A DNA stretch of 64,000 nucleotides from contig NZ_CP107834.1 of assembly GCF_036346595.1 (NCBI RefSeq), forward strand, positions 2,914,001 to 2,978,000, written 5' to 3'. Below the pieces are notes generated by a model. That model did not search any database, was not told the DNA's origin, and saw only the letters and a list, made by a program, of their open reading frames with translations. A program made the translations under genes and the position numbers. Below are positions 39,697 through 55,804 of the stretch, in pieces (the first letter of the stretch is position 1; each line of letters opens with the position of its first letter). The stretch is from Streptomyces sp. NBC_00525. Lineage in GTDB: Bacteria; Actinomycetota; Actinomycetes; Streptomycetales; Streptomycetaceae.

Positions 39697-40416
39697 GTGC
39701 TCACCGAGCTCCTGCCTTCGACCGTCGCCACCGCCGAGGCCACCGCCGACCCGGCCGAGGTGTTCCTCTTCCCGGAGGAGGAGTCCCTGATCAGCAACGC
39801 CGTCCCGAAGCGCCGGCTGGAGTTCTCCACGGTGCGGTGGTGCGCCCGGCGCGCCATGGGGGCGCTCGGGGTGGCGCCCGCCGCGGTGCTGCCGGGGCGG
39901 CGCGGGGTGCCGCAGTGGGCGCCGTCGGTGGTGGGTTCGATGACGCACTGCGCGGGCTACCGGGGTGTGGCGCTGGCCCGTGCGGAGGACTTCCTCTCGG
40001 TGGGCATCGACGCGGAGCCCAACGCCCCGCTGCGGCCGGGGGTGCTGGAGTCGATCGCGCTGCCGCAGGAGCTGCGGCGGACCCGAGAGCTGACGTGGGC
40101 GCTGCCCGAAGTCGCCTGGGACCGGCTGCTGTTCTCCGTGAAGGAGGCGGTGTACAAGACGTGGTTCCCGCTCACCGGCCAGGAACTGGACTTCACCGAC
40201 GCGCTGGTGAGCGTGGACGCGACCCAGGAGACGTTCACCGCGCGGCTGCTGCCGGCGCCGGACGAGCTGTCCCCGGCGGGCCCCACCTCGTTCAGCGGGC
40301 GCTGGTCCGCGCGGGACGGAGTGCTGGTGACCGCCATCGCGGTGCCCGCGAAGCGGCCGGCCGGGGCCGCACACGGCGATGCTCCCCGCATGTGCGCTGC
40401 GGGGAGCATCGGCTGA
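39697..40416 (+). CDS. 4'-phosphopantetheinyl transferase, EntD type
   Basis: A 239-aa transferase that should convert apo carrier proteins to holo form using CoA. The two family motifs are seen: VGIDAEPNA at residues 102-110 and FSVKEAVYKTWFP at 146-158. The EntD-group motif PQWAPSVVGSMTHCAGYRG precedes them. The start is GTG at 39697 with gaaggg; MLTELLPSTV matches usual N-termini. A strong hairpin overlaps its last codons. It can serve the cluster's carrier proteins; a second, different transferase is encoded at 41890. Confidence 0.9.
   Translation: MLTELLPSTVATAEATADPAEVFLFPEEESLISNAVPKRRLEFSTVRWCARRAMGALGVAPAAVLPGRRGVPQWAPSVVGSMTHCAGYRGVALARAEDFLSVGIDAEPNAPLRPGVLESIALPQELRRTRELTWALPEVAWDRLLFSVKEAVYKTWFPLTGQELDFTDALVSVDATQETFTARLLPAPDELSPAGPTSFSGRWSARDGVLVTAIAVPAKRPAGAAHGDAPRMCAAGSIG
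40377..40411 (+). terminator. Hairpin overlapping the end of the EntD-type transferase gene
   Basis: A perfect 14-bp stem (cgatgctccccgca / tgcggggagcatcg) with a 7-nt loop lies inside the last 14 codons, just before the stop. It can terminate this gene and the convergent small peptide gene. Confidence 0.65.
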
Positions 40417-40445
40417 GTCGTGTGTGCGGGGCGCGGCCGGGCGGA

Positions 40446-40646
40446 TCAGACGCCCCAGCGGTCGTCCAGCGGCCGGACCTGGCCGGTCGCGACGATTCCG
40501 GGAGAGACCGTGTCCGCGGCACTGACCTCGGTACCGACCGATGTCCCCCGCGAAAGGCCCGACATGAACTGTCCTCCCAGAACGGCCAGAAGTATACCCA
40601 TCAGCAAAGTCAAGCGAACGATAGATTCTTTACCATAACTTGCCAT
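40446..40646 (-). CDS. Small membrane peptide, 66 aa
   Basis: A 66-aa ORF with an excellent RBS (gaggggag, 5 nt before ATG at 40646). A short basic N-terminus (MASYGKESIVR) leads into a hydrophobic segment (LTLLMGILLAVLGGQF, about residues 12-27). A polar tail of about 38 residues follows and ends GQVRPLDDRWGV. This is the layout of a signal-anchored or secreted precursor peptide. It is divergent from a LuxR-type regulator gene with 179 bp between them, a common arrangement for a peptide and its sensor-regulator. Function unknown. Confidence 0.6.
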   Translation of the reverse strand: MASYGKESIVRLTLLMGILLAVLGGQFMSGLSRGTSVGTEVSAADTVSPGIVATGQVRPLDDRWGV

Positions 40647-40760
40647 TGCGACTCCCCTCGGTCGACGAATGAGACTTACCTCCGCCTCCTTGCTCACCCG
40701 AAACCTCCGGCTTCGGAGGTTCCCGGCGACGGGAAAAGAGTCTCGAACGCCGATGATTCG

Positions 40761-40782
40761 CGCCAAGGGCTTCACGTTGGCG
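40761..40782. promoter_or_regulatory. Dyad in the small peptide / LuxR divergent region
   Basis: CGCCAA-N10-TTGGCG, a 22-bp dyad about 45 bp before the LuxR gene, sized like a LuxR-family box. A second hairpin (aacctccg/cggaggtt) lies at 40702-40721. Confidence 0.35.
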
Positions 40783-40825
40783 TAAAGTTACGTGGCAGCA
40801 ATTACACCGACCAGTGGGGGCTGGC

Positions 40826-41863
40826 GTGTTCCAAGGGGAGTACGCGGATTCGGGCTTTGCCGAACTGGATGACGTGAGCGCTGCGGCATACGGTCTCGCC
40901 GTCGAGTGCGGCCGCTTCGACCGCGACCGGATTGCCCACGACCTGTCCCTCACCCACGACGAGATCGCCCGCGTCGAGAGCGTGCTGGTGGGGGTCCGGC
41001 TGCTCCAGTCGGTGCCCGGCCACTCGCACCAGCTGACCCCCGTCACCCCCGACGCCGCCGCCGCCTCCCTGGTGGGCCCCGCCGAACGGCAGATCCGCGA
41101 CCTCCAGCAGGCCGTCACCGAGGTCCGGGCCAAGCTGATGTCGCTGACCCCCCTGTACTTCGAGGGCCGCCGGGTGCGCAATCACCTGGAGGCGTTCGAC
41201 ATCATCAGTGACCCCGCCCGCATCCAGGCCCTCCTCGACCACCTCGGCCAGACCTGCAAGAGCGAGCTGATCACCGTCCAGCCCGGCGGCGCGCGCCCGG
41301 CGGACCTGCTCGACGACGCCAGGGCGAGCGCGCTGTCCATCCTGTCGCGCGGGGTGCGCATCCGGACCATCTACCAGCACACCGCGCGCAACGACCTGCC
41401 CACCCGCTCCTACGTCCGCGACGTGACCGTGCGGGGCGCGGAGGTCCGGACCGCCGACGAGGTGATCGACCGGCTGATCATCTACGACCGCGAGGTGGCG
41501 TTCCTGCCGGAGCGGTCCGCCCACGAGGACAGTCCGGGGGCGGCCGTCGTCCGCGAGCCCACCCTCGTGGCGTTCCTGTGCTCCGTCTTCGAGTACCTGT
41601 GGGAGGGCGCGACCCCGTACGTCGTGGAGTCGCAGCGCTCCCCCGCGTCCACCGACGAGCTGAAGTGGTCGATCATCCGGCTGATGACCAAGGGCTACAA
41701 GGACGAGATGGTGGCCCGCCGGCTCGGCATGTCCGTACGCACCTGCCGGCGCCACATCGCGGAGATCACCGAGCAGTTGGAGGCCACCAGCCGGTTCCAG
41801 GCGGGCTACAACGCCGCCCGCCTGGAGATGCTGACCGGTGACCCCGGCCGCCCGTTCTCCTGA
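40826..41863 (+). CDS. LuxR-family regulator with TrmB/PLD-like sensor region
   Basis: A 345-aa regulator. The N-terminal third is a winged-helix of the TrmB kind with a coiled-coil stretch (AERQIRDLQQAVTEVRAKLM). The middle resembles the phospholipase-D-like domain of such regulators (ALSILSRGVRIRTIYQHTAR). The C-terminal LuxR helix-turn-helix is at about 280-335 (MTKGYKDEMVARRLGMSVRT). Regulators of this type control many antibiotic clusters. GTG at 40826 has ggggg six bases upstream; GTG at 40814 is an alternative. It lies next to the start of the core biosynthetic operon's distal end. Confidence 0.8.
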   Translation: MFQGEYADSGFAELDDVSAAAYGLAVECGRFDRDRIAHDLSLTHDEIARVESVLVGVRLLQSVPGHSHQLTPVTPDAAAASLVGPAERQIRDLQQAVTEVRAKLMSLTPLYFEGRRVRNHLEAFDIISDPARIQALLDHLGQTCKSELITVQPGGARPADLLDDARASALSILSRGVRIRTIYQHTARNDLPTRSYVRDVTVRGAEVRTADEVIDRLIIYDREVAFLPERSAHEDSPGAAVVREPTLVAFLCSVFEYLWEGATPYVVESQRSPASTDELKWSIIRLMTKGYKDEMVARRLGMSVRTCRRHIAEITEQLEATSRFQAGYNAARLEMLTGDPGRPFS

Positions 41864-41889
41864 CGGGTACGGCGGGGGCGCGCCGCGCC

Positions 41890-42756
41890 TCACGCGCCGC
41901 GGCCCCCGTCCTCCTCCGCGTCCAGCGCCTCCGTGATCGCGTCCACGCAGTCCTGGTCGAGCATCGTCGTGACGTGGGCGTCCTGGAGCTTGCCGAACCC
42001 CGCGTCGTACACCGCCGCGCTGACCACGTAGCCGTCCTCCAGCGGAAAGGTGCGGAAGGTCCACTCCTCGCCGGTGCCCGGTGTGCCGTCCGGGCGCTGC
42101 ACCCGCACCGGCCGCCCGTCCGGGCCGAACCCGAACTCGGTGAAGCGGAACTGCATGCCCTGCCCGATCGCCTTGGAGTACGCCTCCTTCAGCGTCCACA
42201 GCCGCACCAGCGCGCCGTTGCGCTCCTTCTCCGGCATCCCGGACAGCAGGACCGCCTCGTACGGCGTGCAGATGTGCCGGACCAGCCCGCCGCCGTACAT
42301 GTCGCGGTCGGCCCGCTCGGCGTCCACCCCGATCAGGCCGCAGGTCGTCAGCCCGACGAGCAGCAGGTCCTCGGTGTGGCTGAGGCTGATGTCGATCTGG
42401 TCGCAGCCGCGCAGATACGGGCGCCCGGTCGGCCCGTACGCCAGCTCCAGGTCGCCCGGTTCGCTGGCCAGCACCGCACCCGCCGCGTGCTTGAGCAGCA
42501 TCCGCGAGGCGACGTACCGGTTGCGTACGTCGGAGTGGGTCAGGTCCAGATAGCGCGTCCAGTCACGGCCGAGCAGTTCGCGCAGACCGTCGCCCGAGGG
42601 CACGGCGGGCTCCAGGTCCTTCAGCCACGCATAGGCCAGAGCGGTGCCGTGCGCGGTGAGGTCGTCCTTGACTCTGTTCCACGAGTCACCGCCGGGAACC
42701 ACGGCGACGGGCTCACCGAGCGGTGAGCCGAGCGTGATATTGCCCGGCGCGGTCAT
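41890..42756 (-). CDS. 4'-phosphopantetheinyl transferase, Sfp type
   Basis: A 288-aa Sfp-type transferase, the last gene of the core operon. Motifs are RYVASRMLLKHAAG (residues 80-93), IDISLSHTEDLLLVG, LIGVDAERADRD (141-152) and RLWTLKEAYSKAIGQG (185-200); the acidic residues that bind Mg-CoA are kept. Its ATG overlaps the ACP stop by four bases (ATGA), so it is probably dedicated to the cluster's ACPs. About 70 residues after the last motif form a normal C-terminal subdomain. Confidence 0.92.
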   Translation of the reverse strand: MTAPGNITLGSPLGEPVAVVPGGDSWNRVKDDLTAHGTALAYAWLKDLEPAVPSGDGLRELLGRDWTRYLDLTHSDVRNRYVASRMLLKHAAGAVLASEPGDLELAYGPTGRPYLRGCDQIDISLSHTEDLLLVGLTTCGLIGVDAERADRDMYGGGLVRHICTPYEAVLLSGMPEKERNGALVRLWTLKEAYSKAIGQGMQFRFTEFGFGPDGRPVRVQRPDGTPGTGEEWTFRTFPLEDGYVVSAAVYDAGFGKLQDAHVTTMLDQDCVDAITEALDAEEDGGRGA

Positions 42757-42998
42757 CCGTACTCCTTCACGAGGGTGTGAATGTCCCGGAGGCTCCCGGC
42801 CTCCAGCAGACGGTGCACCGGCACGTGGTGGCCGGACTCCTCCAGGAGGGCCACCAGCCGGAGCAGGTTCAGCGAGTCCCAGCCGGGCACCTCCGTGAGG
42901 GCCGTATCCGCTCCGGCGGGGCCCGCCACGTCCAGGCCCAGGTCGTCGCCCACGATCCGCAGGAACGCGTCGAGGCCCGTCAGGTCGTCGGCGCTCAT
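42753..42998 (-). CDS. Acyl carrier protein for the FkbH-type enzyme
   Basis: An 81-aa stand-alone ACP. The phosphopantetheine serine is S42 in GWDSLNLLRLV. The start is ATG at 42998, sharing one base with the stop of the FkbH gene (TGATG). In glyceryl-ACP systems (tetronate and methoxymalonyl pathways) a small ACP encoded next to the FkbH gene accepts the glyceryl unit from 1,3-bisphosphoglycerate; the position here matches exactly. Confidence 0.9.
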   Translation of the reverse strand: MSADDLTGLDAFLRIVGDDLGLDVAGPAGADTALTEVPGWDSLNLLRLVALLEESGHHVPVHRLLEAGSLRDIHTLVKEYG

Positions 42999-44899
42999 CA
43001 GGATGCCTTTCCGGACTCGGTGACGCGTATGTGGCCGGGTGTCTCCGGCAGCACCGTCAGGTCGTGGCGGTACTCCGCGGCCCCGTCCCCGCTCTCCCCG
43101 TCCCCGCTCTTCCCGGACCCGGAGGAACGGCGGGCGACGAACCCGCAGGAGGGGTAGAGATCCCCGGCCCGGTGATTGCGGGCGGTGGGTACGTAGCGGG
43201 CGCCCACGGCTTGCAGTCCGAGGCGCCGGGCCCTGTTCAACAGTACGGCGACGAAGGCGCGTTCGACGCCCCGGCCGAGGACGCGGCAGCTCAGCCACAG
43301 GTTGTCCAGCCGCCATTCCCCCGGGGACCGGCTGATCAGCGCGGCGCCGACCAGTCCGTTGTCCCCGAACCGGTCGGCGGTGCGCGCCACGAGCACCTCC
43401 CGGCCGGCGTCGGCCGCGAGGGCGGTCACGGCGGCCTCGGTGAGACCGCCCCCGGCGAGGTTGAACTGATGGGTCCGCAAGGTCAGCTGGGAGATCCGGG
43501 CGACCTCGTGCGGGCGCGGCGGGCCGACGTCGAGCCGGAGGTCCAGGGCGTGCAGGAACTCCTCGTGCGAACCGGCTCCGGCGTGCAGCTCCCGGCGCTC
43601 GCGGCGGGCCCGGTACTCACCCGTCCTGGCCCGGTCCTCGTCGGTCAGGCCGACCGTGTCGAACCAGCCGTCCGCCAGCAGCCGCCCGATGTGCGTGGCC
43701 GGCTCCTCGCCCAGCGGTACGACGGCGACCGCGGGCAGTCCGTGGCGCACCTGCTCGCGTTCGGCCGGCGAGTCGTCCGCGAAGACCAGGGCGTCCGCGG
43801 ACAGGTCGAGCCGGCGGGCGATGTCGGCCAGGTTGCCGTCCTTGGGCTCCCAGTTGGCGTTGACGGCCACGAAGTCCCGTTCCCGGAGCACCGGGTCGGG
43901 GTGGTCCGCCAGCACCCGGGCGACTTCGGCGGCGTCGTTCTTGCTGCTCACGGCGAGAAGGACGCCCTGGGAGCCGAGTTGCTTGACACAGGTCTGGAAG
44001 GCGCCGAACGCCTCCCCGCGCAGCGTTCCGGCGGCGGCGATGCCGTCGGGCCCGTCCTCGGCGAGGATGCCGTCCCACAGGGTCTGGTCGAGGTCGAGCA
44101 CCAGGCACTTGCGGACGGCGCCGCGCAGGGCCCGGGCCAGATGGGCGACCTCCCTGGCGTAGCCGGCCAGCAGCTCCGCGCCGAGCCGGACCTTGGCGTA
44201 CCGGGCGAGACAGGGGTCGGTGACGGGCCCGCCCTCGCCCGTCAGCGGGTCGAGGTCGATGACCACCAGGGCCGGAAAGCGTTCGGTGAGCCGCAGCAGC
44301 GCGGCGTTGAACTCCCGCCACACCGCGCCGAGCCGGGCCCGTGACCGGTGGTCGATGAGCCGGCGGCTGTACGCCAGGGGCAGCGGCAGGGTGTTGAGGA
44401 CCAGGGTGCCCGGCGCGTGCGCGGCCAGCGTGGCGCACCGCTCCAGCGCGTCGGCGGCGGCCGACTCCACGTCCTCGGGCCGCCATACGCCGGGAACCTG
44501 CTCGAACACCGTCTCGGCGTCCAGCAGGCAGAGGGTGAGGTCGGGGGACGCGGTGTGCAGCTCGCTCCCGGTGTCGGTCAGATCGCGCAGATAGGTGCCG
44601 TGCTCGCCGAGGACGGCGCGCAGCAGCAGCCCGTGACGGGCGAGTTCGCCCCGGAGCGGATCGAGGACCTGGCCGACCGTGGACTGGCCGGTGACGGCGA
44701 CCGTGACGACCGGGGTCGCCGGGTGGTGGGCCAGCACGGCTCCGGGGTCGAGGGAGCCGAGCAGCCGGCCGGCCGCCGCGGTGTCCGCCCGGACCCCGCC
44801 GGGCTCCTCCTGGGCGAGGGCGGCGGCGACCTGGTCGTACGCCTTCGCCAGCAGTCCGCGCTTGCGCAGGTCGCGGAGGCGGTCCAGTCCCGAGGTCAT
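42998..44899 (-). CDS. FkbH-type HAD-superfamily glyceryl-ACP synthase with GNAT-like C-terminus
   Basis: A 633-aa HAD-IIIC enzyme. The central HAD domain has LVLDLDQTLWDGIL (nucleophile D269, with D271) and later SSKNDAAEV and VFADDSPAERE. FkbH homologues take D-1,3-bisphosphoglycerate, remove a phosphate and load the glyceryl unit onto ACP. The C-terminal 170 residues are a GNAT-like domain, as in the longer FkbH proteins. A GSGKSGDGESGDG linker precedes the last strand. The ATG at 44899 has GAGG at the right distance; GTG at 44905 is also possible. The genes for methoxymalonyl formation (FkbG, FkbK) are absent. Confidence 0.88.
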   Translation of the reverse strand: MTSGLDRLRDLRKRGLLAKAYDQVAAALAQEEPGGVRADTAAAGRLLGSLDPGAVLAHHPATPVVTVAVTGQSTVGQVLDPLRGELARHGLLLRAVLGEHGTYLRDLTDTGSELHTASPDLTLCLLDAETVFEQVPGVWRPEDVESAAADALERCATLAAHAPGTLVLNTLPLPLAYSRRLIDHRSRARLGAVWREFNAALLRLTERFPALVVIDLDPLTGEGGPVTDPCLARYAKVRLGAELLAGYAREVAHLARALRGAVRKCLVLDLDQTLWDGILAEDGPDGIAAAGTLRGEAFGAFQTCVKQLGSQGVLLAVSSKNDAAEVARVLADHPDPVLRERDFVAVNANWEPKDGNLADIARRLDLSADALVFADDSPAEREQVRHGLPAVAVVPLGEEPATHIGRLLADGWFDTVGLTDEDRARTGEYRARRERRELHAGAGSHEEFLHALDLRLDVGPPRPHEVARISQLTLRTHQFNLAGGGLTEAAVTALAADAGREVLVARTADRFGDNGLVGAALISRSPGEWRLDNLWLSCRVLGRGVERAFVAVLLNRARRLGLQAVGARYVPTARNHRAGDLYPSCGFVARRSSGSGKSGDGESGDGAAEYRHDLTVLPETPGHIRVTESGKAS

Positions 44900-44906
44900 C
44901 GCCACC

Positions 44907-45920
44907 TCACACCTTCTCCAGGGCGAATCCGGCCCTGATCCACCGGCTGGACTCCACGCACAGCCCGATCGCCCGGTCGCCCTCCGCGAGTTCGGGGACC
45001 AGCCGGTCGAGCTGGAGGAACGGCAGCGCGTTGCCGGTGTTGCCGGTGTCGGCGACGCAGGACACCTTCCGGGCCGGACAGTCGGGCAGCCGCTCCACGA
45101 TGCGGGCGGTCATCCGCTCGGAGAGCTGGGGCGGCAGCAGGTATCCGATGCCGTCCAGCTCCCAGCCGAGCCCGCCGAGCAGGTCCCAGAGGATCTCCGA
45201 GGCGATCGGCGGCACATGCTCCTCGATCGCCTTGTAGTCCTCGGCGAGCATCGGCCGGTCGGAGTCGCGGTCGGTGGTGCCGTACCAGTCGAGGAGCTGT
45301 CCGGGCCGGCGGCCGCGTCCGGTCCAGGAGTTGAGCACGGAGCGCACGGCGATCCGCTCGCCCTCGGGTTCGGCGGTGAGGACGGCGGCACCGGCCCCGT
45401 CCCCGAACAGCACATAGTTGACGAGTTCGCCGCTGGGGATCTTCGCCGCGTCCTGCCGGGGCGACAGAAAGCGGTGCGTGACATCGCCGCCGATCACGAG
45501 CCCGGCCTGCCGCCCGCCCGCGATCAGGCTGCGGCCCAGGTCGAGGGCCTGAACGGCGCCGGAGCAGCCCGCCTGGATCTGGTAGACGGGCAGATGGTCG
45601 AGGCCGAGCCGGTCCGCGACCTCGGCGGCGGTGGTGGGCAGCAGGGTGTCCGGCGTCGCCGTGGCCAGCACAAGGAACTCGATGTCCGCGAGGACGAGCC
45701 CGGAGTGCCGTACGGCCTGCGCGGCGGCTTCGGCGCACAGGTCGGCCAGCGAGCCGCGCACCTCCCCGGTGACCGGGTCCCAGCCGAAGTAGCGGGTCCG
45801 GGTGCCGACGAAGAGGTCGATCCACTCCTTGCTGGCGCCGAGCAGCTTGGCGAGCGTGGCGTTGTCGACCGGGTCGCCGGGCAGCGCCGTGCCGGTCGCG
45901 GCGATATGGACATCGGTCAT
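44907..45920 (-). CDS. KASIII (FabH)-like ketosynthase, probable tetronate cyclase
   Basis: A 337-aa thiolase-fold enzyme. The nucleophile is C119 in IQAGCSGAVQAL and the Asn motif is DTGNTGNALP (291-300). At the position of the FabH His-Gln-Ala-Asn motif the sequence reads LLPPQLS (261-267), so the usual histidine is missing. In tetronate clusters a KASIII homologue joins a glyceryl-ACP to a beta-ketoacyl thioester and closes the ring. Here it lies between the PKS (ATGA overlap at 45917-45920) and FkbH, as expected for that role. The product assignment is inference. Confidence 0.85.
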   Translation of the reverse strand: MTDVHIAATGTALPGDPVDNATLAKLLGASKEWIDLFVGTRTRYFGWDPVTGEVRGSLADLCAEAAAQAVRHSGLVLADIEFLVLATATPDTLLPTTAAEVADRLGLDHLPVYQIQAGCSGAVQALDLGRSLIAGGRQAGLVIGGDVTHRFLSPRQDAAKIPSGELVNYVLFGDGAGAAVLTAEPEGERIAVRSVLNSWTGRGRRPGQLLDWYGTTDRDSDRPMLAEDYKAIEEHVPPIASEILWDLLGGLGWELDGIGYLLPPQLSERMTARIVERLPDCPARKVSCVADTGNTGNALPFLQLDRLVPELAEGDRAIGLCVESSRWIRAGFALEKV

Positions 45921-48900
45921 GCCGACCTCGCCATGATCACGCCGTCCAGGAATTCGGCCAGCGAACCGACCGAGCGCAGTGCGGGCAGCATCTGCTGCAC
46001 GGATACCTCTCCGACCCTCGGGAGCCGGGCTTCCACCCGGTTCTTGAGTTGCATGATCATCACTGAGTCGAAGCCCAGGTCCTCATGGAAACGGGCCTCG
46101 CGCACCACACGTTCCGTGGGATAGCCGCCGACCTCGGTGACGGCTTCGACCACGGCGACGAGCACGGGATCGTCGTCGCCGGTCTCCCCGTTGGGCGTTT
46201 CACGTGAAACCTCACTCATGGGCGTTTCACGTGAAACGGCGGGCATGTCGGGCCGCCGCTCCACCCTCGGCTCGACGGAGGCCGGGGGCCGGTCCCAGTA
46301 GCGCTGTGCGGACGAGAAGACGTACGGGGCGAGCGGTTCGGGCACCCGGTGCTCCGGGGCGTACAGCTCCTCCCAGACGGGGTCGAGTCCGCAGCGGTAC
46401 AGGGCGGCGACGGTCTCCGCCAGATCTCTGCCGGTGCCCTCGGGTCCGGGTGCGGGATGCAGGAGTTCGGCGCCGCCCAGGCTTCCGGCGCGGGCGGCGA
46501 TCCGGGTGAGCTGGGGCCGGGGGCCGATCTCGACCAGATGGGTCGGGGCGATGTCATGGACGAGGGCGCCGAGCGCCGCGTCGAAGAGCACCGGCTCCTC
46601 CGTCTGGCCCGCCCAGTACCCGGCGTCCATCGGCTCGTCGCGCAACATCCGGCCGTACCGGGTGGAGGCCACCGGCAGCGCGGCGGGCCCACAGTGCACG
46701 GGGGCGGCCCGCAGTCCGGCGGCGACCGGGGCCAGCTGGGCGGAGTGGAACGCATACGGGGAGGCCAGCGGCCGGGTCCGGATGCCGAGCCCGGCCAGCT
46801 CCTCGCCGATCCGGGCCAGCGCGTCCAGCGGGCCGGAGAGCACGGTGTCGGCCGGCCCGTTGAGCGCGGCGACCACCACTTCGGGCTCCGCCGCGAGCAC
46901 CGCGGCAAGCTCGTCGGCGCCCGCCGCGACGCTCGTCATCCCGCCGCCGGAGGGCAGTGCGGCCGTGAGCCGGGCGCGCCGGACGACCAGCCCGGCCGCC
47001 TCGTCCAGGGTGAGGACTCCGGCGGTGACGGCGGCGGCGTACTCACCGAGGCTGTGGCCGAGCACGGCGGCCGGGGTCACGCCCAGGTCGACCAGGGTGC
47101 GCGCGAGGGCATAGCCCACGGCGAAGAGGGCCGGCTGAACCAGCTCCGGCCGCCCACCCTCGACCCCGGCCCCGGCCCTGGCCCCGCCCTCCCGCGCCGC
47201 AGCGGCTTCGCCGAGTACCGCCTCGCGCACCGAGTGGCCCAGATGGGCGGCCAGCGCCGCGTCGGCCGCGTCGAAGTGGCGCCGGTAGGCCGGGGATTCG
47301 CGGTAGAGGCCCGCCGTCATCGCGGGGTACTCGCTGCCCTGGCCGGTGAAGAGGAACGCCACCACGGGGCGGCCCCAGGGCCGGTCACCGGCGGGATGCG
47401 GCTCGCCCGGTGCGGGGGTGCGCAGCTCCACGGCCCGGCGCAGTCCGGCCACGAGTTCGCCGGTGTCGCGGGCGGTGAGCGCGAAGCGGTGCGGCAGCCC
47501 GGTCTTGACCCGGTTGCTGCTCCGGCACAGCGCCGCCGCCCCGCCCCCGGGCCGTGCGGCGAGCGCGTCGGCCTGGGCGGCGAGGTTGCGGCGCAGGGCC
47601 TCCGGGGTGTCGGCGCTGACGGTGAACACCCCGGCCGCACCGGACTCCGCGCGGTCGCGGACCGGGACCGCGCGGGGGGTCCTGGGCGCGCGGGGGGTCC
47701 TGGGCGCGCTGGCGAGAACGGCGTGGGCGTTCGTGCCGCCCATGCCGAAGCTGCTCACCCCGGCGACGGTCTCGCCGCGCGGCAGCCGGACCGGGGACTT
47801 GAGCAGCCGCAGACCGCGTTCGCCGAGCCGGAGCCGGGAGTTCTCGCGCTCCGCGAAGAGGCTGGCCGGGACGATGCGGTGGTGCAGGGCCAGCGCGGTC
47901 TTGATGAACCCGGCGATCCCGGCGGCGCCCTCGGTGTGCCCCAGGTTGCCCTTGACGGAGCCGATGGCGCACGGCGCCTCGCGCGGGACACCGTGCACCG
48001 AGCCGAGCGCCGCGCACTCGATGGCGTCCCCGAGGACGGTCCCGGTGCCGTGGGCCTCCACGAAGGCGACCTCGGCGGGGCTGACCCCGGCGCGCCGGTA
48101 GGCGGCGTTCAGGACGCGCTCCTGGGACCAGCGGTTGGGAGCGATCATCCCGTTGCTGCGGCCGTCCTGGTTGACGGCGCTGCCGCGCAGCACGGCGTAG
48201 ACGCGGTCGCCGTCCTCGACCGCGTCCGCCAGCCGGCGCAGCACCACCAGGCCGACACCGTCGCTGCGGCCGAGGCCGTCCGCCTCGGCGCTGAACGGCT
48301 TGCACCGCCCGTCGGCGGCGGCCAGCCCGAGCTGCCCGTAGACCAGGCCGAGCGAGGGCGAGAGGACGACGTTGACCCCGCCGGCCAGCGCGGTGTCGCA
48401 CTCCCCGGCCAGCAGCGAGTTCGCGGCGAGGTGGACGGCGACCAGCGAGGAGGAGCAGGCCGTGTCCACGGCGAGGCTCGGGCCGGTGAGGTCGAAGTGG
48501 TAGGAGATCCGGTTGGCGGCCATGCCGGCGCTGCTGCCGGACCCGAGCAGCGGGGTGACCCGGTCGAGGTCGCTCATGGTCAGGCGCCCCCACTCGCCGC
48601 CCATCACCCCGACGAACACCCCGGTCCCGCTGCCCGCGAGGTCGCCGGGGGCGCGCCCCGCGTCCTCCAGGGCCCGCCAGGCGCAGGGCAGCAGCAGCCG
48701 CTGGTGCGGGTCCATCGCGGCGGCCTCGCGCGGCGTGATGGAGAAGAAGTCGCTGTCGAAGACATCGGCGTCGTCGATGAAACCGCCGCTGTCACCGGCC
48801 GCGGGGAAATCCCGTGCCTCCCAGCGCCGGCCGGGGACGGGCCCGATGCCGGCCCGGCCCCCCACCAGCAGGTCCCAGTACGCCTGGACGCCCGCCGCTC

Positions 48901-48943
48901 CGGGGAACGCGCAGTCGATCCCGACGACGGCGATGTCCCCCAT
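45917..48943 (-). CDS. Type I polyketide synthase, one module: KS-AT-ACP
   Basis: A 1008-aa single-module synthase. The KS (residues 1-410) has C163 in DTACSSS, H298 in EAHGTGT and H336 in NLGHTEG. The AT (525-830) has S631 in GHSLGE and H733 in SPYAFHS; this last motif is closer to malonyl than methylmalonyl ATs. The ACP (925-1005) has S960 in GFDSVMI. There are no KR, DH or ER domains, so the product stays beta-keto. The AT-ACP linker contains VSRET twice (903-907 and 912-916), encoded by two parS sites. The start overlaps the ACP stop (TGATG). It should extend the FAAL-derived acyl chain once. Confidence 0.93.
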   Translation of the reverse strand: MGDIAVVGIDCAFPGAAGVQAYWDLLVGGRAGIGPVPGRRWEARDFPAAGDSGGFIDDADVFDSDFFSITPREAAAMDPHQRLLLPCAWRALEDAGRAPGDLAGSGTGVFVGVMGGEWGRLTMSDLDRVTPLLGSGSSAGMAANRISYHFDLTGPSLAVDTACSSSLVAVHLAANSLLAGECDTALAGGVNVVLSPSLGLVYGQLGLAAADGRCKPFSAEADGLGRSDGVGLVVLRRLADAVEDGDRVYAVLRGSAVNQDGRSNGMIAPNRWSQERVLNAAYRRAGVSPAEVAFVEAHGTGTVLGDAIECAALGSVHGVPREAPCAIGSVKGNLGHTEGAAGIAGFIKTALALHHRIVPASLFAERENSRLRLGERGLRLLKSPVRLPRGETVAGVSSFGMGGTNAHAVLASAPRTPRAPRTPRAVPVRDRAESGAAGVFTVSADTPEALRRNLAAQADALAARPGGGAAALCRSSNRVKTGLPHRFALTARDTGELVAGLRRAVELRTPAPGEPHPAGDRPWGRPVVAFLFTGQGSEYPAMTAGLYRESPAYRRHFDAADAALAAHLGHSVREAVLGEAAAAREGGARAGAGVEGGRPELVQPALFAVGYALARTLVDLGVTPAAVLGHSLGEYAAAVTAGVLTLDEAAGLVVRRARLTAALPSGGGMTSVAAGADELAAVLAAEPEVVVAALNGPADTVLSGPLDALARIGEELAGLGIRTRPLASPYAFHSAQLAPVAAGLRAAPVHCGPAALPVASTRYGRMLRDEPMDAGYWAGQTEEPVLFDAALGALVHDIAPTHLVEIGPRPQLTRIAARAGSLGGAELLHPAPGPEGTGRDLAETVAALYRCGLDPVWEELYAPEHRVPEPLAPYVFSSAQRYWDRPPASVEPRVERRPDMPAVSRETPMSEVSRETPNGETGDDDPVLVAVVEAVTEVGGYPTERVVREARFHEDLGFDSVMIMQLKNRVEARLPRVGEVSVQQMLPALRSVGSLAEFLDGVIMARSA
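46197..46210. other. parS: parS site (ParB binding) inside the PKS gene, copy 3
   Basis: A perfect GTTTCACGTGAAAC in the coding sequence. In frame it encodes the core of VSRET. Confidence 0.92.
46224..46237. other. parS: parS site (ParB binding) inside the PKS gene, copy 4
   Basis: A second perfect GTTTCACGTGAAAC in the PKS gene, 27 bp from the other one and in the same reading phase (VSRET). Confidence 0.92.
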
Positions 48944-49263
48944 CAGCTCTGGTCCCGCAGGGGGGCCGCGCCCGCCGGTCCGTCCGGCAGCACCGCGGTC
49001 AGATGGCGGACCAGGCCGTTGACGGTCGGGAAGTCCCACAGCAGGGTCGACTCGACCTCCAGGCCGAACTCCTCCTCCAGGTCGCCGCAGAGGCTGAGCG
49101 CCGCCACCGAGTCCATGCCGTACTCGGCGAGCGGCACGGCCGGGTCGATGGTCTCCGGCGCCCGCCGCAGGTAGAGCGAGAGGCGGGCCGACAGCCAGGC
49201 GTACACGCCGTCCTCCTTCGCGGTGTCGGCGGCGAGGGTGTGCCGGCCGGTGGGGATGGTCAT
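48943..49263 (-). CDS. Acyl carrier protein for the fatty acyl starter
   Basis: A 106-aa ACP with S52 in the motif EYGMDSVAALSL, the GMDS form common in ACPs paired with fatty acyl-AMP ligases and type I PKSs. A polar N-terminal extension of about 20 residues precedes the helical core and a flexible tail follows. ATG at 49263 has aaggag upstream. It lies between the acyl-CoA dehydrogenase and PKS genes; it probably receives the acyl-adenylate from FAAL and hands the chain to the PKS. Confidence 0.9.
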   Translation of the reverse strand: MTIPTGRHTLAADTAKEDGVYAWLSARLSLYLRRAPETIDPAVPLAEYGMDSVAALSLCGDLEEEFGLEVESTLLWDFPTVNGLVRHLTAVLPDGPAGAAPLRDQS

Positions 49264-49278
49264 CGCGGACTCCTTCGG

Positions 49279-51045
49279 TCAACCCGGAATCGGGGTCGAG
49301 TAGAGGTCGTAGCTGGTCCGGGTGGAGAAGCGGAGCTGGACCTCGTGTCTCAGGCGCGTCTCGCACTCCGGGGGGAGGGCGGCGACGCGGGTGCCGAGCC
49401 GCCCGCAGATGCGGTGCAGCGCGGCGGCGGCCCAGGACGGGTCGGCGAGGAACGGGTCGGGGCCGTACCGGGCCTGGTCCCAGACGCCCAGCACGGCGGC
49501 CCCGGCGAGCAGCAGCGTGTACCGGTCCATCAGGGCGAACCGGGCGGGCCGGGCGCTTCCGGCCGGTCCGGCCGCCTCCAGGCGGAGCACCCGGCCGCGC
49601 ACGTCCCGGAACTCCTCGACGAGCAGCCCCGCCAGGGTGCGCAGGGCGCGCTCCACGGGGCCGTGGCCGTCGATGCGCGCGGCGACCGCGAGCAGCGAGG
49701 CGCTGAGCGAGTCCCGGCCGCAGGCCAGGGCGAGGCGTTCGGTGCGCAGCGGCGGCAGGTCCCCGTCCAGCCGGAAGAGCCCGGCGGGCGCCTCGTCCTC
49801 GACGAACCAGGAGCGGCGGGCGAGCCGGGGCATCTGCGGGATGACGGTGGCCTGGCAGGCGACGGTGCCGGCGTGGCCGAGGCTGAGCACGGGCACGTCC
49901 CGGACGTGCTTCTGGAAGATGCCCCGGGTGCCCTCGCGGGTGTAGAACTCGGAGCCCAGGACGATCGACAGGTCGTACATGGTCTCGCCGAGCACACGCG
50001 GCATCAGGTACTTGAGCGCCGCCGAGGTGACGCTCGTCTCGGCGGGCAGCAGATGCAGGGCGCGGGCGGCCACCACGGCGAGCGCGTCGTACAGCAGCAG
50101 GCTGACGAAGGCGTTGGTCAGGGCGGCCCCGGTGCGGCTGTTGTCGGTGCCCCGGCCCTGCCAGCCGCCGGACTGCTCGCGGTCGATGCGGACGGCGGTG
50201 CGCAGGCTGGTGTCCAGGGCGGCGACGGCGGTGGCGGCGATCACGGTCCGGCTGATCTGGAAGGAGCGCAGCGCGATCTCGATGCCGCTGCCCTCCGGCC
50301 CGAGCAGCGCGGACCGGGGCACCGGGCAGTCGTCGAACTCGACGCCCGCGAACCGGCAGCCGCGCAGCCCGACCGGGGTGCGGCGGGCGGTGACGGCGGC
50401 GTGGACGTCGGACAGCTGCTCCGGCTCCAGCAGCAGCACGGAGTGGCTGCGGCTGCCCGGGGCCGGGTCGGTGCGGCAGAACAGGACCAGTGCCCCGGCC
50501 CGTTCCAGATTGTTGACCAGGGGCTTCCCGCCGCTGATCAGATAGCCGCCGGGGCCGCGCCGGGCGGTGACCTGGCTGCGGACGAAGTCGTTGCTGTGCG
50601 CCGTCTCGTGCTGGGCGATGGCGGCCCGGCCGCCCCCGCGCAGCAGTCCGGCCAGCCACTGGCGCTGGCGGTCGCTGCCCGTCGCCCAGACGTCGGACGC
50701 GGCCATGAAGGTGGTCATGCCGTGCCCGATGGCCAGGCCCACGTCGCGGCGCATCACCGGCCGCATGACCCGGACCAGGGTGTCCATCGCGTCGAGCCGG
50801 CCGCCGAGCGCGCGCGGCACGTACTCCTCGGCGATGCCGAACGCGTCGAGCAGCGCCTCGCCCGCGGCGAACGGCACCGCGGCCCGGTCGGCTTCCAGGA
50901 GCGCGGAGTAGCCGGCCGGGTTGGCCGGGTCGGACGGGTCGCCGAACAGGTCCTCCAGGGCGGCGACCCTGGCCCGGACGGCGCTCTCGCGCCGCCGCGC
51001 GGCCTGCTCGGAGGAGGGCGCGAGCACGGTGGGCGGGGTCGTCAC
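49279..51045 (-). CDS. Acyl-CoA (acyl-ACP) dehydrogenase, long form
   Basis: A 588-aa flavoenzyme. Typical ACAD segments are seen: AIAQHETAHSNDFVRSQVTA, FAGVEFDDCPVPRSALLG and the IALRSFQISRTVIAATAVAALD helix. It is longer than standard ACADs (about 380 aa), with an additional C-terminal helical region of about 190 residues, like FadE-type enzymes associated with FAAL genes. It probably introduces a double bond into the ACP-bound acyl chain. The GTG at 51045 overlaps the FAAL stop (GTGA). The catalytic base was not pinpointed. Confidence 0.83.
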   Translation of the reverse strand: MTTPPTVLAPSSEQAARRRESAVRARVAALEDLFGDPSDPANPAGYSALLEADRAAVPFAAGEALLDAFGIAEEYVPRALGGRLDAMDTLVRVMRPVMRRDVGLAIGHGMTTFMAASDVWATGSDRQRQWLAGLLRGGGRAAIAQHETAHSNDFVRSQVTARRGPGGYLISGGKPLVNNLERAGALVLFCRTDPAPGSRSHSVLLLEPEQLSDVHAAVTARRTPVGLRGCRFAGVEFDDCPVPRSALLGPEGSGIEIALRSFQISRTVIAATAVAALDTSLRTAVRIDREQSGGWQGRGTDNSRTGAALTNAFVSLLLYDALAVVAARALHLLPAETSVTSAALKYLMPRVLGETMYDLSIVLGSEFYTREGTRGIFQKHVRDVPVLSLGHAGTVACQATVIPQMPRLARRSWFVEDEAPAGLFRLDGDLPPLRTERLALACGRDSLSASLLAVAARIDGHGPVERALRTLAGLLVEEFRDVRGRVLRLEAAGPAGSARPARFALMDRYTLLLAGAAVLGVWDQARYGPDPFLADPSWAAAALHRICGRLGTRVAALPPECETRLRHEVQLRFSTRTSYDLYSTPIPG

Positions 51046-52856
51046 CACCGCCTTCCTCCGTCGGCTCCCTCCGGCCGCAGCAGGTCGCCCCCGAACAGCA
51101 CGTCCTCGGCGCGGGCCAGCGCCCACACGTCCGGGGTCAGCACCTCGTACTCGCCGCGCACCACCCCGTCCAGGAACAGCGTCCGCATCAGGGTGCGCTG
51201 GACCTTGCCGCTGCTGGTGCGGCGCACGGCGCCGGGGCGCACCAGCAGGATGTTGCCGGCCGGGATCTCGAATTCCTGGCCGATCAGGGCCTGGATCTTC
51301 TGGGCGACGGTGCGCAGTTCGGTGCTGTCCGCGACACCGCGCACCTCCTGGACGAGCACCAGGTGCTCGCGTCCGGCGTCCACGGAGAACGCGGCTCCGG
51401 CGCCGAAGGTCAGGGCGGGGCTGACGGTCCGGGCGGCCCACTCGACGTCCTGCGGGTAGACGTTGCGGCCGTTGATGATGATGACTTCCTTGAGCCGCCC
51501 GGTGACGAACAGCTCCCCGTCGACCAGCATGCCGAGGTCGCCGGTCCGCAGGAAGTTGCTCTCCTCGTCGTTGAGGCTGGCGCGGAAGGTGCGCACGGTC
51601 TCGGTGGGTCGCCGCCAGTAGCCGCGGGCGATGCCGTAGCCGCGTATCCATATCTCGCCGACCGCGCCGGCCGGCAGCTCGTGGTGGGTCAGCGGGTCCA
51701 CGATCCGTACGTCCGCGTCCACCGGGACGCCGCAGCCGACGAGCGTGCGCCGCCGATCGTCCGTGCCGGCCGCCTCGGCCCGGTCCCGCTCCAGCTCGGC
51801 CTGGTCGAACTCGCGGCGGACGTACGGGGTGCCGGGCGCGCCGCCGGAGACGACGAGCGTGGCCTCCGCCAGGCCGTAGCAGGGGCGCAGCGCCTCGGGC
51901 CGGAAGCCGGCGGGCGCGAACCGCTCCGCGAAGGCGTCCAGGCTCTCGGCGCGCACCGGTTCGGCGCCGTTGAGGGCGAGGCGCCAGCGGGACAGGTCGA
52001 GCGCGGCGATCTGCTCGTCCTTGACCCGGTGGACGCACAGGTCGTAGCAGAAGTTGGGGCCGCCGCCGACGGTGACGCCGTACTCGTCGATGGCCTGGAG
52101 CCAGCGCAGCGGGCGCTTGACGAAGGAGAGCGGGGTGACCTGGACGCTGTGGCTGCCGAGGTGGATCGGGTGCAGCAGGTGCGCGACCAGGCCCATGTCG
52201 TGGAAGTAGGGCAGCCAGCTGCCGAAGACGTCCTCGCGGGTGGTGCGCAGCAGCTTCTGGAGGCTGGCCTGGTTGGCGAGGAGGTTGCGGTGCGAGACGG
52301 TCACGCCGCGCGGTTCGGAGACGGAGCCGGAGGTGTACTGGAGGAAGACCAGGTCGTCGGCGCGGGCCGCGACGGGCCGCCACGCCTCCGGGTCGCCGAT
52401 CTCGGGGACGTCGGTGACCAGGCACTCGGCGGTGGAGCGGGTGTTGCGGGCGAGCCAGAGCGCGACCTCGGGGGCGGCGGACGTCTCGGTGAGGACGACG
52501 GCGGCGCCGGTGTCCTTGAGCACGGCGGTGGTCCGGTTGAGGCGCTTGTCGCGGCCGGCCTCGCCGGGCAGCGGGACGGGGACGGCGACGGCTCCCGCGT
52601 ACAGGCAGCCCGCGAAGCCCTTGAGGAACTCCGCGGTGGAGGAGTAGGCGAGCAGCACGGGCTGTTCGGTCACGCCGTAGTTCTGGAGGCAGGCGGCGAT
52701 GCGTCTCGCCTCCCGGTCCAGCTCTCCGTAGGTGAGGTGTTCGGCCACCGGACCGTCCGCGGTGTCGCGGAGGAAGACGTGCACGTCCTGGCCGGCGAGT
52801 TCGGCCGTCCGGGCGCGGAGCAGTTCGGTGAAGGTGGCGAAGCGTGACTCTGACAT
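51042..52856 (-). CDS. Fatty acyl-AMP ligase (FAAL)
   Basis: A 604-aa adenylating enzyme that should activate a free fatty acid and load it on the ACP encoded two genes downstream. The opening TFTELLRARTAEL and AYSSTAEFLKGFAGCLYAGAVAVPV are FAAL hallmarks. A3 is YTSGSVSEPRG, A5 CYGLAEATL, A7 LRTGDLG and A10 RTSSGKVQR with the catalytic lysine. The start is ATG at 52856 with GAGGGG nine bases upstream; an ATG at 52865 is possible. First gene of the eight-gene minus-strand core operon. Confidence 0.92.
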   Translation of the reverse strand: MSESRFATFTELLRARTAELAGQDVHVFLRDTADGPVAEHLTYGELDREARRIAACLQNYGVTEQPVLLAYSSTAEFLKGFAGCLYAGAVAVPVPLPGEAGRDKRLNRTTAVLKDTGAAVVLTETSAAPEVALWLARNTRSTAECLVTDVPEIGDPEAWRPVAARADDLVFLQYTSGSVSEPRGVTVSHRNLLANQASLQKLLRTTREDVFGSWLPYFHDMGLVAHLLHPIHLGSHSVQVTPLSFVKRPLRWLQAIDEYGVTVGGGPNFCYDLCVHRVKDEQIAALDLSRWRLALNGAEPVRAESLDAFAERFAPAGFRPEALRPCYGLAEATLVVSGGAPGTPYVRREFDQAELERDRAEAAGTDDRRRTLVGCGVPVDADVRIVDPLTHHELPAGAVGEIWIRGYGIARGYWRRPTETVRTFRASLNDEESNFLRTGDLGMLVDGELFVTGRLKEVIIINGRNVYPQDVEWAARTVSPALTFGAGAAFSVDAGREHLVLVQEVRGVADSTELRTVAQKIQALIGQEFEIPAGNILLVRPGAVRRTSSGKVQRTLMRTLFLDGVVRGEYEVLTPDVWALARAEDVLFGGDLLRPEGADGGRRW

Positions 52857-53019
52857 CCGCGGCATCCCCTCGCGTCTCGGGCCCGTGGATGTGCGGCCCT
52901 CGTTCCCGCCGATCCTCCGCAACGGCCCTTGCGGCTCGCTTGCGCGCCCCGGCGGGCGCGCCGGGTTCAGGGGGCGGCAGGGGTGCACCGAGGGAGGGGG
53001 TACGGGTGACGCTCGCCGC

Positions 53020-53985
53020 ATGGACACTCACACCGAACCCGCAGAGGCGATGCGTACGGCGATCGTCTTCCCCGGCATGCAGCCGACGGCCTTCTCCGAG
53101 GTCTCCCGTTTCATGCTGGTCAACCCGCACGCGCGCGAGCTGTACGCGCGCGCCGACGAGGCCCTGGGCTACCGGCTGGCCGACCGCTACCAGCGGACCG
53201 AGGGCGACTATTCGCGCTACGGGCAGATCTCCTTCGTGGTGAACTGCCTGGCGCTCGCCCGCTGGGCGGAGGAGCGGCTGGGGGTCGAGCCGTCGCACGT
53301 GACCGGGCCCAGCTTCGGCGCCCGCGCCGCCGCCGTGTACGCCGGAGTGCTCGACTTCGCCGACGCGGTGACGATGACGGCCCGGCTGGCGGACACGATG
53401 GAGGACTACTTCGCCCGCGAGCATCCGGCGCTGGTCACCCAGTCGATCGCGCGGGTACCGCGGGAGGGTGTGGAGGAGCTGCGCCGGGAGCTGGAGGAGC
53501 GCGGCGAGTGGAGCGACATCGCCTGTGTGGTGGACCGGGACTTCACGATGCTGACCGTCCACGAGTCGGTCCTGGACTGGCTCCAGCGCCGTATCCGCTC
53601 GCTCGGCGGGATGGCGCTGTACACGATGAAGCCGCCGATGCACTCGTATCTGTTCGACGGGCTGCGCGACCGGGTGGACGAGGAGATCTTCGCGGGGCTG
53701 ACCTGGTCGGACCCACGGCTGCCGGTGGTCGCCGACCAGGACGGCCGGACGGTGACGACGGGCGCGGGTGTGCGCGGGATGCTGCTGGACGGCTTCGTGC
53801 GCACGGTGTGCTGGCCGGACGTGGTGGCGGCGCTGCGGGCGGGCGGCGTGGGCCGGCTGTGCGTGTCCGGGGCGGACGGCCTGTTCACCCGTGTCGCCTG
53901 CACCACGCGGAACTTCGAGGTGGTGCCGGTGACGCCCCGGTCCGCGATGCAGCCGGTGCGGCGCCGGATGCCGGTCGCGGCCTGA
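53020..53985 (+). CDS. Free-standing acyltransferase (malonyl-transferase-like fold)
   Basis: A 321-aa FabD-fold protein. The nucleophile elbow reads VTGPSFGARAA (S98), with Pro in place of the His of the usual GHSxG. The catalytic histidine lies in KPPMHSYLF (H208). The N-terminal IVFPGMQPTAF matches the VFPGQG start of ATs. Free-standing ATs in other clusters load malonyl units in trans or move an aminoacyl group between carrier proteins (for example VinK). It is divergent from the FAAL gene and followed by a bidirectional terminator. ATG at 53020 is used; ATG at 53050 is an alternative. Confidence 0.78.
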   Translation: MDTHTEPAEAMRTAIVFPGMQPTAFSEVSRFMLVNPHARELYARADEALGYRLADRYQRTEGDYSRYGQISFVVNCLALARWAEERLGVEPSHVTGPSFGARAAAVYAGVLDFADAVTMTARLADTMEDYFAREHPALVTQSIARVPREGVEELRRELEERGEWSDIACVVDRDFTMLTVHESVLDWLQRRIRSLGGMALYTMKPPMHSYLFDGLRDRVDEEIFAGLTWSDPRLPVVADQDGRTVTTGAGVRGMLLDGFVRTVCWPDVVAALRAGGVGRLCVSGADGLFTRVACTTRNFEVVPVTPRSAMQPVRRRMPVAA

Positions 53986-53998
53986 GCGCCGTACACGT

Positions 53999-54040
53999 GC
54001 GGAAGGGGCCGGTGCCCGCGAAGGCACCGGCCCCTTCCGC
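53999..54040. terminator. Bidirectional terminator, 18-bp perfect stem
   Basis: gcggaaggggccggtgcc at 53999-54016 and its inverted copy at 54023-54040, with a 6-nt loop. It lies between the convergent acyltransferase and PQQ-like genes and can serve both. Confidence 0.9.
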
Positions 54041-54048
54041 GTACCGGG

Positions 54049-55644
54049 TTACCTGCCGTCCACCGTGAAAGCGTAGAACGTGCCCTCGGTGCTGCTGCCG
54101 GTGGTGCCGGCGCCGTCGGCGAACCGGGCGTAGCCGTTGCCCCAGTAGACCGTGCCGTCCACGACCGCCGGGCCGGCGTTGGAGGAGTACGGGGCGGCGA
54201 ACTCCCACAGGTACTCACCGGTGGCGCCGTCGAAGGCGTACATGTGGCCGCTGGTGGAGCCGCCGAAGACGACGCCGTTCGCGGCGGTCAGGGCGCCCCA
54301 GGCGAATCCGTCGGTGCGGTCCGCGACCTGCCAGATGATCTCGCCGGTCTGCGGGTCGAGCGCGGCGAAGGAGCTGCGGTTGGTGGTGGAGCCGTCCGCC
54401 AGCTGGTAGTCGAGCTTGTTGAAGTTGGCCTCGGCCAGGTAGATCCGCTTCCCGTCGAAGGCGGTGCCCCACTCGATGCCGCCGACGTGTCCGCCGGGAC
54501 CGGCCGCCGCGCTCCAGACGACCTCGCCGGTGGCGGCGTCCATCAGCCAGTACTCGCCGCTCTTCTCGCCCGCGCCGATCACCTTGCGGGCCCGGCCGTC
54601 CGCGCCCTTGATGGTGAACAGGTGGGCGCCGTCACCGAAGTCGTAGTCGTAGCCGGGGTTCGGCGGGCAGTTGTTCGGCGGGAGCCCCGGCAGGCAGCCG
54701 GTGTTCCAGGCGTCGAACCGCTTGGCGCCGGTGTGCCACTTGATCCGGCCCGTGTACATGTCCAGGGCCAGGACCGTGTCGACGTAGTTGTCCTCCTGGT
54801 AGCACTCGGCGGGGGTGCCGCCGGCCGTCTGGCAGTCGGACACCTCCTTCGGGACGGTGTAGTTGTTGCCGGTGGTGAAGTACACCGTGTGGGTCGAGGG
54901 GTCCAGCGCCGGGGTGCCCCACACGGCGACACCGCTGTAGCCGCCGGCCCTGCCGCCGTTGTCCGGGGTGGTGAACTGCCGCCACAGCACCTTGCCGGTC
55001 TTCGCGGAGATGGCGTTCACGCTGCCGCGGAAGGTGCAGCAGGGGTACGTGGGGTCGTAGGCGCCCTCCGACTCGCGCGAGGAGACGCCCTGGTAGATGA
55101 TCCCGTCGTGGACGACCGGCGACTGGGTCAGCACGGCCTTGTACTGCGTGTCGATCTCACGGGTCCAGATCTTGTCGCCGGTCCGGGCGTCGACCGTGAT
55201 GAGCACGGCCTTCGTCCAGTCGGCTATGTAGACCCTGCCGTTGACGACGGTCGGGCTGGACCGGGAGACGGAGGCCGCGTCGCCGGTGTACTCGGAGATC
55301 TTGTGCGACCAGATCGGCGCGCCCGTCTTCGCGTTGATCTTGTGCAGATAGCCGCCCCAGTCCGGGAAGTAGACGGCGCCGTCGACGACGGCCGGCGTGG
55401 CCGACACGTCGCCGTGCGTGGCGTACGTCCACTTGGCCTTCAGCCGGCTCGCGTTGTCCGTGGTGATCTTGTACTCGCCCGTTGCGGAGCGGCTGTTGGC
55501 CAGGTCGTGGCCGCCGGTCGTCCACTGGGCCTGCGGGCCGCACGCGTTGGCCGGGGCGATGGCGAGGGTGGTCGCCATGGCCACGGTGGCGAACAGGGTG
55601 AGCCTGCGGGCCGTCTTCCGAGGCGACCGGGGTCTTGTGAACAT
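54049..55644 (-). CDS. Secreted PQQ-type beta-propeller dehydrogenase-like protein
   Basis: A 531-aa protein with a Sec signal peptide (basic MFTRPRSPRKTARR, hydrophobic core, cleavage around APANA at residues 30-34). The rest is a beta-propeller of repeated blades with the quinoprotein tryptophan-docking pattern (AKTGAPIWSHKI, ARTGDKIWTREI, AKTGKVLWR, PQTGEIIWQV). The vicinal Cys pair C202-C203 (YPCCTFRG) resembles the disulfide ring of PQQ alcohol dehydrogenases. The start is ATG at 55644 with ggaggac. Extracellular oxidation of the cluster product is possible; a PQQ supply is not evident in the window. Confidence 0.8.
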   Translation of the reverse strand: MFTRPRSPRKTARRLTLFATVAMATTLAIAPANACGPQAQWTTGGHDLANSRSATGEYKITTDNASRLKAKWTYATHGDVSATPAVVDGAVYFPDWGGYLHKINAKTGAPIWSHKISEYTGDAASVSRSSPTVVNGRVYIADWTKAVLITVDARTGDKIWTREIDTQYKAVLTQSPVVHDGIIYQGVSSRESEGAYDPTYPCCTFRGSVNAISAKTGKVLWRQFTTPDNGGRAGGYSGVAVWGTPALDPSTHTVYFTTGNNYTVPKEVSDCQTAGGTPAECYQEDNYVDTVLALDMYTGRIKWHTGAKRFDAWNTGCLPGLPPNNCPPNPGYDYDFGDGAHLFTIKGADGRARKVIGAGEKSGEYWLMDAATGEVVWSAAAGPGGHVGGIEWGTAFDGKRIYLAEANFNKLDYQLADGSTTNRSSFAALDPQTGEIIWQVADRTDGFAWGALTAANGVVFGGSTSGHMYAFDGATGEYLWEFAAPYSSNAGPAVVDGTVYWGNGYARFADGAGTTGSSTEGTFYAFTVDGR

Positions 55645-55690
55645 GACTGACTGTCCTCCCGAGGACGGTGGTGACGAAGTGCGTGTGGTG

Positions 55691-55804
55691 CCTGTGATGC
55701 CTGTCGTGCCTGTCGTGCCTGTCGTGCCTGTCGTGCCTGTCGTGCCTGTCGTGCCTGTGCCGGTGGTGCTTGTGGGGTCTGTGCCGGTGGTGCTTGTGGG
55801 GTCT
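55691..55804. repeat. Minisatellite: 9-bp units then two 24-bp units
   Basis: cctgtgatg followed by six exact cctgtcgtg units (55700-55753). Then two exact copies of a 24-bp unit (55757-55780 and 55781-55804). It lies in the 203-bp gap upstream of the PQQ-like gene, where its promoter should be. Confidence 0.93.

Follow-up and report, generated by a model that had tools for sequence, protein, structure and literature searches.

The PKS gene and its two parS sites

The window, that is the whole 64-kb stretch of DNA analysed here (positions 2914001 to 2978000 of contig C1 in genome G000, 7.10 Mb), contains a type I polyketide synthase (PKS) gene, and all of the closest named relatives of this PKS come from the genus Streptomyces. 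Two perfect parS sites had been predicted between the acyltransferase (AT) and acyl carrier protein (ACP) domains of this gene, and both are present at the predicted places (Table 1), each writing the peptide VSRET. The sites are perfect 14-bp palindromes (GTTTCACGTGAAAC) separated by 13 bp and are read on the minus strand as PAVSRETPMSEVSRETPNGET. They lie between the AT (approximately residues 530–819) and the ACP (approximately 931–999), with the Pfam coordinates shifted by 572 to the called start of the PKS. Alignments of PKS relatives revealed that the AT–ACP linker is hypervariable in both length and sequence. The AlphaFold model of the protein is weak (mean pLDDT 57.9, pTM 0.45, KS half poor) and gives the linker the values in Table 1; the predicted disorder therefore leans mainly on the hypervariability.

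Table 1. Coordinates of the features discussed, in window positions.
Feature	Position	Strand	Basis
Left part of biosynthetic cluster	24517..64000	.	Gene blocks common with G419, G421, G422 and G433 begin at gene 24517
Presumed operon: PPTase, ACP, FkbH-like, KSIII-like, PKS, ACP, acyl-CoA-dehydrogenase-like, fatty acyl-AMP ligase	41890..52988	-	Close same-strand genes; Pfam, NCBIfam
Type I PKS, KS-AT-ACP, 1008 aa	45917..48943	-	Gene call; Pfam ketoacyl-synt, Acyl_transf_1, PP-binding
AT–ACP linker of the PKS, residues 864–923, predicted without regular structure	46175..46354	-	Alignments; pLDDT <50
parS, ACP-proximal copy (VSRET, residues 912–916)	46197..46210	.	Perfect match; 14/14 identical at the aligned place in L039, L040 and L041
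parS, second copy (VSRET, residues 903–907)	46224..46237	.	Perfect match; L039–L041 have one site each
Intergenic parS, first of pair	23224..23237	.	Perfect match
Intergenic parS, second of pair	23252..23265	.	Perfect match

With up to two mismatches allowed, four parS matches were found in the window against 0.03 expected, and none of 100 shuffled windows reached four. From base composition, approximately 1.4e-5 perfect sites are expected per window and 0.0015 per genome, while 20 were found in the genome, so that a chance origin is as improbable as had been claimed. The original prediction was correct about the PKS pair but had missed a second pair; all four sites in the window are perfect. 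The agreement in reading phase on which it had dwelt is real, as both sites read VSRET, but tells little: since TGA occurs in one of the three phases of parS, an in-frame site writes only VSRET or (x)FHVK, and any two sites in the same gene agree in phase about half of the time. At least one close pair of perfect parS sites (gap 1–25 bp) occurs in 278 of 392 Streptomyces genomes, a pattern into which the PKS pair fits.

The additional pair, its members 28 bp apart, is flanked by a sigma-factor-like gene and an oxidoreductase gene and falls just short of the left boundary of the cluster. The automatically called gene start at 23259 is questionable, and the ATG at 23307, which aligns with the start in relatives, is more likely. 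No site was found in the aligned gap of three relatives (G416, G417 and G418). Since the PKS locus of G417 (L040) branches outside the group formed by the window, L039 and L041, a gain is simpler than repeated losses, and the intergenic pair was probably acquired in the lineage of the window. Copying of one pair from the other was considered and rejected, as the spacers differ by eye and lend it no support.

The genes of the presumed operon are probably expressed as one transcript. The set of fatty acyl-AMP ligase, acyl-CoA-dehydrogenase-like, ACP, KSIII-like and FkbH-like genes follows what we take to be tetronate-type logic. Among the genes flanking the PKS are those for LuxR-type regulators and a second PPTase. 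In the region from 41890 to 62650 and beyond, the cluster also contains giant ORFs that match PKS, together with genes for a VinK-like acyltransferase, an aminotransferase and a KamA-like radical SAM enzyme.

The parS array around dnaA and the place of the cluster

All 20 perfect parS sites of the genome are located within 2741636–3355614 of contig C1, a region of 614 kb around dnaA (3153974), and three sites with one mismatch were also found. The PKS pair lies at −194 kb and the intergenic pair at −217 kb from dnaA. The side with lower coordinates holds 14 of the 20 perfect sites together with parA and parB. According to a published survey of 20 closed streptomycete chromosomes, approximately 80% of parS sites lie right of oriC (PMC8743542), and the parAB side of the present genome presumably corresponds to that published right side. 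The perfect sites flanking the two window pairs are at −69 and −413 kb; if both pairs were absent, approximately 340 kb would thus have no perfect parS, with one single-mismatch site at 3064893 in this stretch. At L155, a ParB gene scored 203 bits with TIGR00180 (cut-off 58) and matched Spo0J/ParB-type structures. The ParA-type ATPase at the same locus gave significant matches, of which the 25 among those listed all fall below their own model cut-offs. Both genes adjoin parS sites. By their sequence, the PKS sites are real parS, as originally proposed, and belong to the origin-centred array of this genome. The genomes of the clade to which the window belongs carry 16–20 perfect parS each. Among the 20 genomes compared, G423, G424 and G430 have two each as against 9–28 in the other 17, perhaps reflecting a diverged parS consensus or a reduced array.

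Judged from shared gene blocks and from giant ORFs past the window, the whole cluster is approximately 97 kb long, and its right end is placed near genome position 3035.2 kb, an estimate taken from the last giant ORF. The distance from PKS parS to dnaA is 194 kb in the window genome and 181, 237 and 180 kb in three relatives; in G416 and G418, no perfect parS other than the PKS site lies in the interval from about −60 to −300 kb. The left flank of the window (1–24 kb) is largely collinear with G416. By contrast, in G419, G421, G422 and G433, weak paralogue matches aside, none of these flank genes was found in the 13–30 kb left of the cluster. The G420 contig breaks off within the cluster. No perfect parS was present on the PKS contigs of G419 and G421, nor on that of G420 among 22 of its 23 sites listed, and the cluster of the sister species lies on contigs other than the one carrying dnaA. 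In G421 and G422, the gene that is the left neighbour of the cluster in the window sits on a contig different from that of the cluster; in G427 it lies 228 kb from dnaA with the cluster not beside it, and G419, G420, G430 and G433 gave no match at the set threshold.

It had been suggested that the cluster is long resident near oriC. This holds in so far as four species share its place at 180–237 kb from dnaA, which indicates that it is not a fresh arrival; the other left neighbours in G419 and G421 and in the more distant relatives G422 and G433, however, suggest that the cluster reached this position, by acquisition or by relocation, no later than the base of the clade. A neighbourhood conserved in all relatives was rejected, since the adjoining genes fall inside a larger shared block and the left neighbours differ in those four genomes. 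A candidate empty insertion site, consisting of the neighbouring gene pair without the cluster in G421, G427 and G003, was likewise set aside, as the wider surroundings are not collinear. The glycerol kinase gene beside the cluster in G419 has matches of 57–60% outside G419–G421.

Conservation of parS DNA among PKS relatives

Conservation was assessed in the best 80 PKS-relative loci of a genome scan, a few of which are partial and may have no linker. Perfect parS was detected in three of them, L039 (sp. 2131.1), L040 (sp. A0958) and L041 (sp. col6), which are 87–88% identical relatives and carry a single site each at the ACP-proximal place; two further loci have, anywhere along their length, no match better than one with two mismatches. 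It had been reasoned that occurrence of VSRET in orthologues far from oriC for protein reasons would speak against a centromeric meaning, and the result was the opposite: the peptide occurs in the same three of the best 80 loci, invariably in parS codons, and in none of the six frames of the other 77. VSRET as a conserved motif of the PKS family was rejected on this ground, and the sites appear from these comparisons to be kept for DNA rather than protein reasons.

All 14 parS bases and four rare codons are the same in the four species, whereas the linker otherwise shows indels and substitutions. In 26 called genes of the window, with both PKS sites included in the counts, GTT encodes 8 of 1144 valines, TCA 9 of 608 serines, CGT 37 of 1214 arginines and GAA 123 of 746 glutamates. 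Between pairs of the four species, 14–21% of the sites with the same residue differ in codon, and 12 of the 67 aligned A/T-ending PKS codons are unchanged in all four, 4 of the 12 being those of parS; outside parS the figure is 8/63. Because codons within a single short stretch cannot be treated as independent, the probabilities that follow from these counts are rough, namely 5e-7 for writing VSRE by codon choice alone and approximately 0.0003 for all four parS codons staying unchanged at the rate of 8/63.

In a phylogeny of 22 PKS proteins truncated ahead of the linker, the window, L039, L040 and L041 form one clade with a support of 100/100, so that a single gain suffices to explain the four carriers. 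The site is absent from the PKS place of the three next-closest relatives (G419, G420 and G421), and the left neighbours of the cluster differ in G419 and G421. Sequence comparison therefore places the gain of the site within this clade of four species, in a cluster near the origin.

The second copy is absent from L039, L040 and L041. Read in the coding direction, two neighbouring 27-bp units of the window are 23/27 identical, with parS matching at 14/14 and the 13-bp spacers at 9/13. Of the 13,639 coding 13-mers taken in phase across the window, only 14 are as similar to the spacer. Because of this low background and the identity of the units, the second copy likely arose by an in-frame tandem duplication of 27 bp.

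Explanations and in-gene parS in other genomes

The best explanation of these data, to which we assign a probability of roughly 0.8, is that the PKS palindromes are functional ParB loading sites of the ParABS system of the chromosome, gained in the linker, and that their DNA has been kept by selection for ParB binding. The pair would be part of the origin-centred array on the parAB side of oriC and would lie in a gene by happenstance. One site may have arisen in the AT–ACP linker, in the ancestor of the four species, after or as the cluster came to lie approximately 180–240 kb from dnaA. As the linker seems to accept almost any peptide, VSRET would cost little there, and the parS DNA would then have been retained by selection for ParB binding. 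Later, in the lineage of the window, the 27-bp duplication may have produced the tandem pair and a separate insertion the other pair 23 kb further out. ParB–CTP clamps loaded at the PKS sites would travel along the DNA for a few kb, across the PKS and the genes next to it, and contribute to the building of segregation complexes and to the loading of SMC on the parAB-side arm. In S. venezuelae, ParB complexes cover the origin region (PMC4852455), and ParB spreads 2.5–3 kb each way from parS, helped by SMC (PMC12511625). By analogy, coverage by ParB would reach from about 43 to 49 kb in the window. Against this explanation, the genomes of the clade have 16–20 perfect sites, so that a single one is probably dispensable and not necessarily under strong selection. 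Moreover, all carriers belong to one clade and count as one gain, and any association of parS with position depends on that single event. All in all, the PKS pair most likely consists of ordinary loading sites for ParB that a disordered linker accommodates.

Alternatively, ParB on the PKS gene might act as a roadblock or silencer and couple operon expression to the increase of ParB during development. The position of the pair in mid-operon and a spreading of the extent described in S. venezuelae (PMC12511625), which would span the PKS and parts of its neighbours, are in keeping with such a role. In Pseudomonas aeruginosa, native ParB represses genes at the intergenic parS3/4 and ParB in large excess was suggested to interfere at the intragenic parS1/2, but the genes near parS1/2 are unchanged by ParB loss (PMC5521831). 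Moreover, the presumed start of the operon is 6.75 kb off, beyond the published spreading distance, and there are relatives that have the equivalent operon without the site. We consider regulation improbable. A plain role in segregation is favoured, because the neighbours of intragenic parS in P. aeruginosa are unchanged without ParB and nine of the ten parS there are predicted in coding sequences.

The sites might also be neutral passengers, created by chance or insertion and awaiting decay, for which a single gain in one clade and the freedom of the linker from protein-level constraint could be adduced. Against this stand the turnover of synonymous and A/T-ending codons around the four that were kept and the great rarity of perfect parS by chance in a high-GC genome, and this explanation seems about as improbable as the regulatory one. 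Least credible, and to our minds hardly tenable, is a functional linker motif VSRET with the parS match as its by-product. The motif is repeated in the window protein, but it is never written in other codons among the best 80 loci, and the same peptide is written where parS lies in frame in genes of no relation to the PKS.

More speculatively, and with the odds rather against it, a mobile cluster of ~97 kb, once established in the origin domain, may have been recruited into the centromere: selection for parS coverage of the parAB-side arm would have planted sites in disordered linkers, where the enforced VSRET or FHVK does no harm, first one and then a pair, and this might be a general way for Streptomyces to preserve its centromere when accessory DNA lengthens the origin region. 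The locus makes the birth of a centromere site in a protein-coding gene traceable, with the site absent in sister species, single in three species and double in a fourth. This opens tests of selection on the number and spacing of Streptomyces centromere sites and of whether ParB loaded in a biosynthetic gene affects its expression. For engineers, codon refactoring of origin-near clusters may delete centromere sites.

In-gene parS, even two per gene, is already in print, and the PKS pair is an unusually clear new example. In P. aeruginosa, nine of ten parS were predicted within coding sequences (PMC4368675), and parS1 and parS2 both lie in recF (PMC4368675; PMC5521831), so that, as in the PKS, two sites occupy the coding DNA of one gene. 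There, however, the host is recF of the replication operon, whereas here it is the hypervariable linker of an accessory gene, in which gain and likely duplication can be traced. The PKS pair also resembles the arrays of S. coelicolor and S. venezuelae, which consist of the 14-bp palindrome, lie around oriC with a bias to one side and act with their own ParA and ParB (PMC4852455; PMC8743542); its place inside a gene of a secondary-metabolite cluster sets it apart. Among the papers listed by searches that covered few subscription journals, no title or abstract start mentions parS within a biosynthetic gene, and parS as a whole word is absent from PMC10090380; the one paper found for strain 2131.1 deals, by its title, with a different subject.

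Five Streptomyces genomes were classified with a simple gene finder; near-start sites (MFHVK..., VFHVK...) are uncertain and were left out of the gene-body count. Nine of the 103 perfect sites fell in gene bodies (G000 3/20, G429 0/27, G426 1/15, G421 4/25, G003 1/16), and in the four genomes other than G000 a further 9 of 83 are no more than 25 residues away from a called start codon. Among 30 close-pair loci, both members of the pair fall in a gene body at one, L142. Like the PKS pair, the other in-gene sites write VSRET or FHVK in frame, mostly in linkers or loops, and include two close doublets. Their hosts, several of which are named from our own reading of the sequence rather than from tool results, are unrelated genes outside the cluster, and most of the linker and loop sites belong to AfsR/SARP-like, anti-sigma-like, CopC/CopD-like membrane and Dyp-peroxidase-like proteins. 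The doublets, in the anti-sigma-like (L142:1501-1553) and CopC/CopD-like (L250:8278-8315) proteins, write two VSRET each with spacings of 39 and 24 bp, respectively, versus 27 in the PKS; the CopC/CopD-like protein carries VSRETEAVVSRET. Two sites of G421 match the linker pattern less well: at L253, VSRET falls within the ATPase-like region of a sensor kinase, and at L250:2566 a membrane-type protein of 219 aa has its site close to the C-terminus.

On the parAB side, the perfect parS of the window genome that lies furthest out (L149:2001, G000:C1:2741636) writes FHVK in the linker of an AfsR/SARP-like regulator. In a search of 14 genomes, 9 of which gave no match at the threshold, this site was kept in G416, G417, G418 and G425 and was absent from the 65% relative in G422. 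One of the near-start sites, in G429 (L232:6491), lies in the 5' part of a putative parB gene, with VSRET at residue 21.
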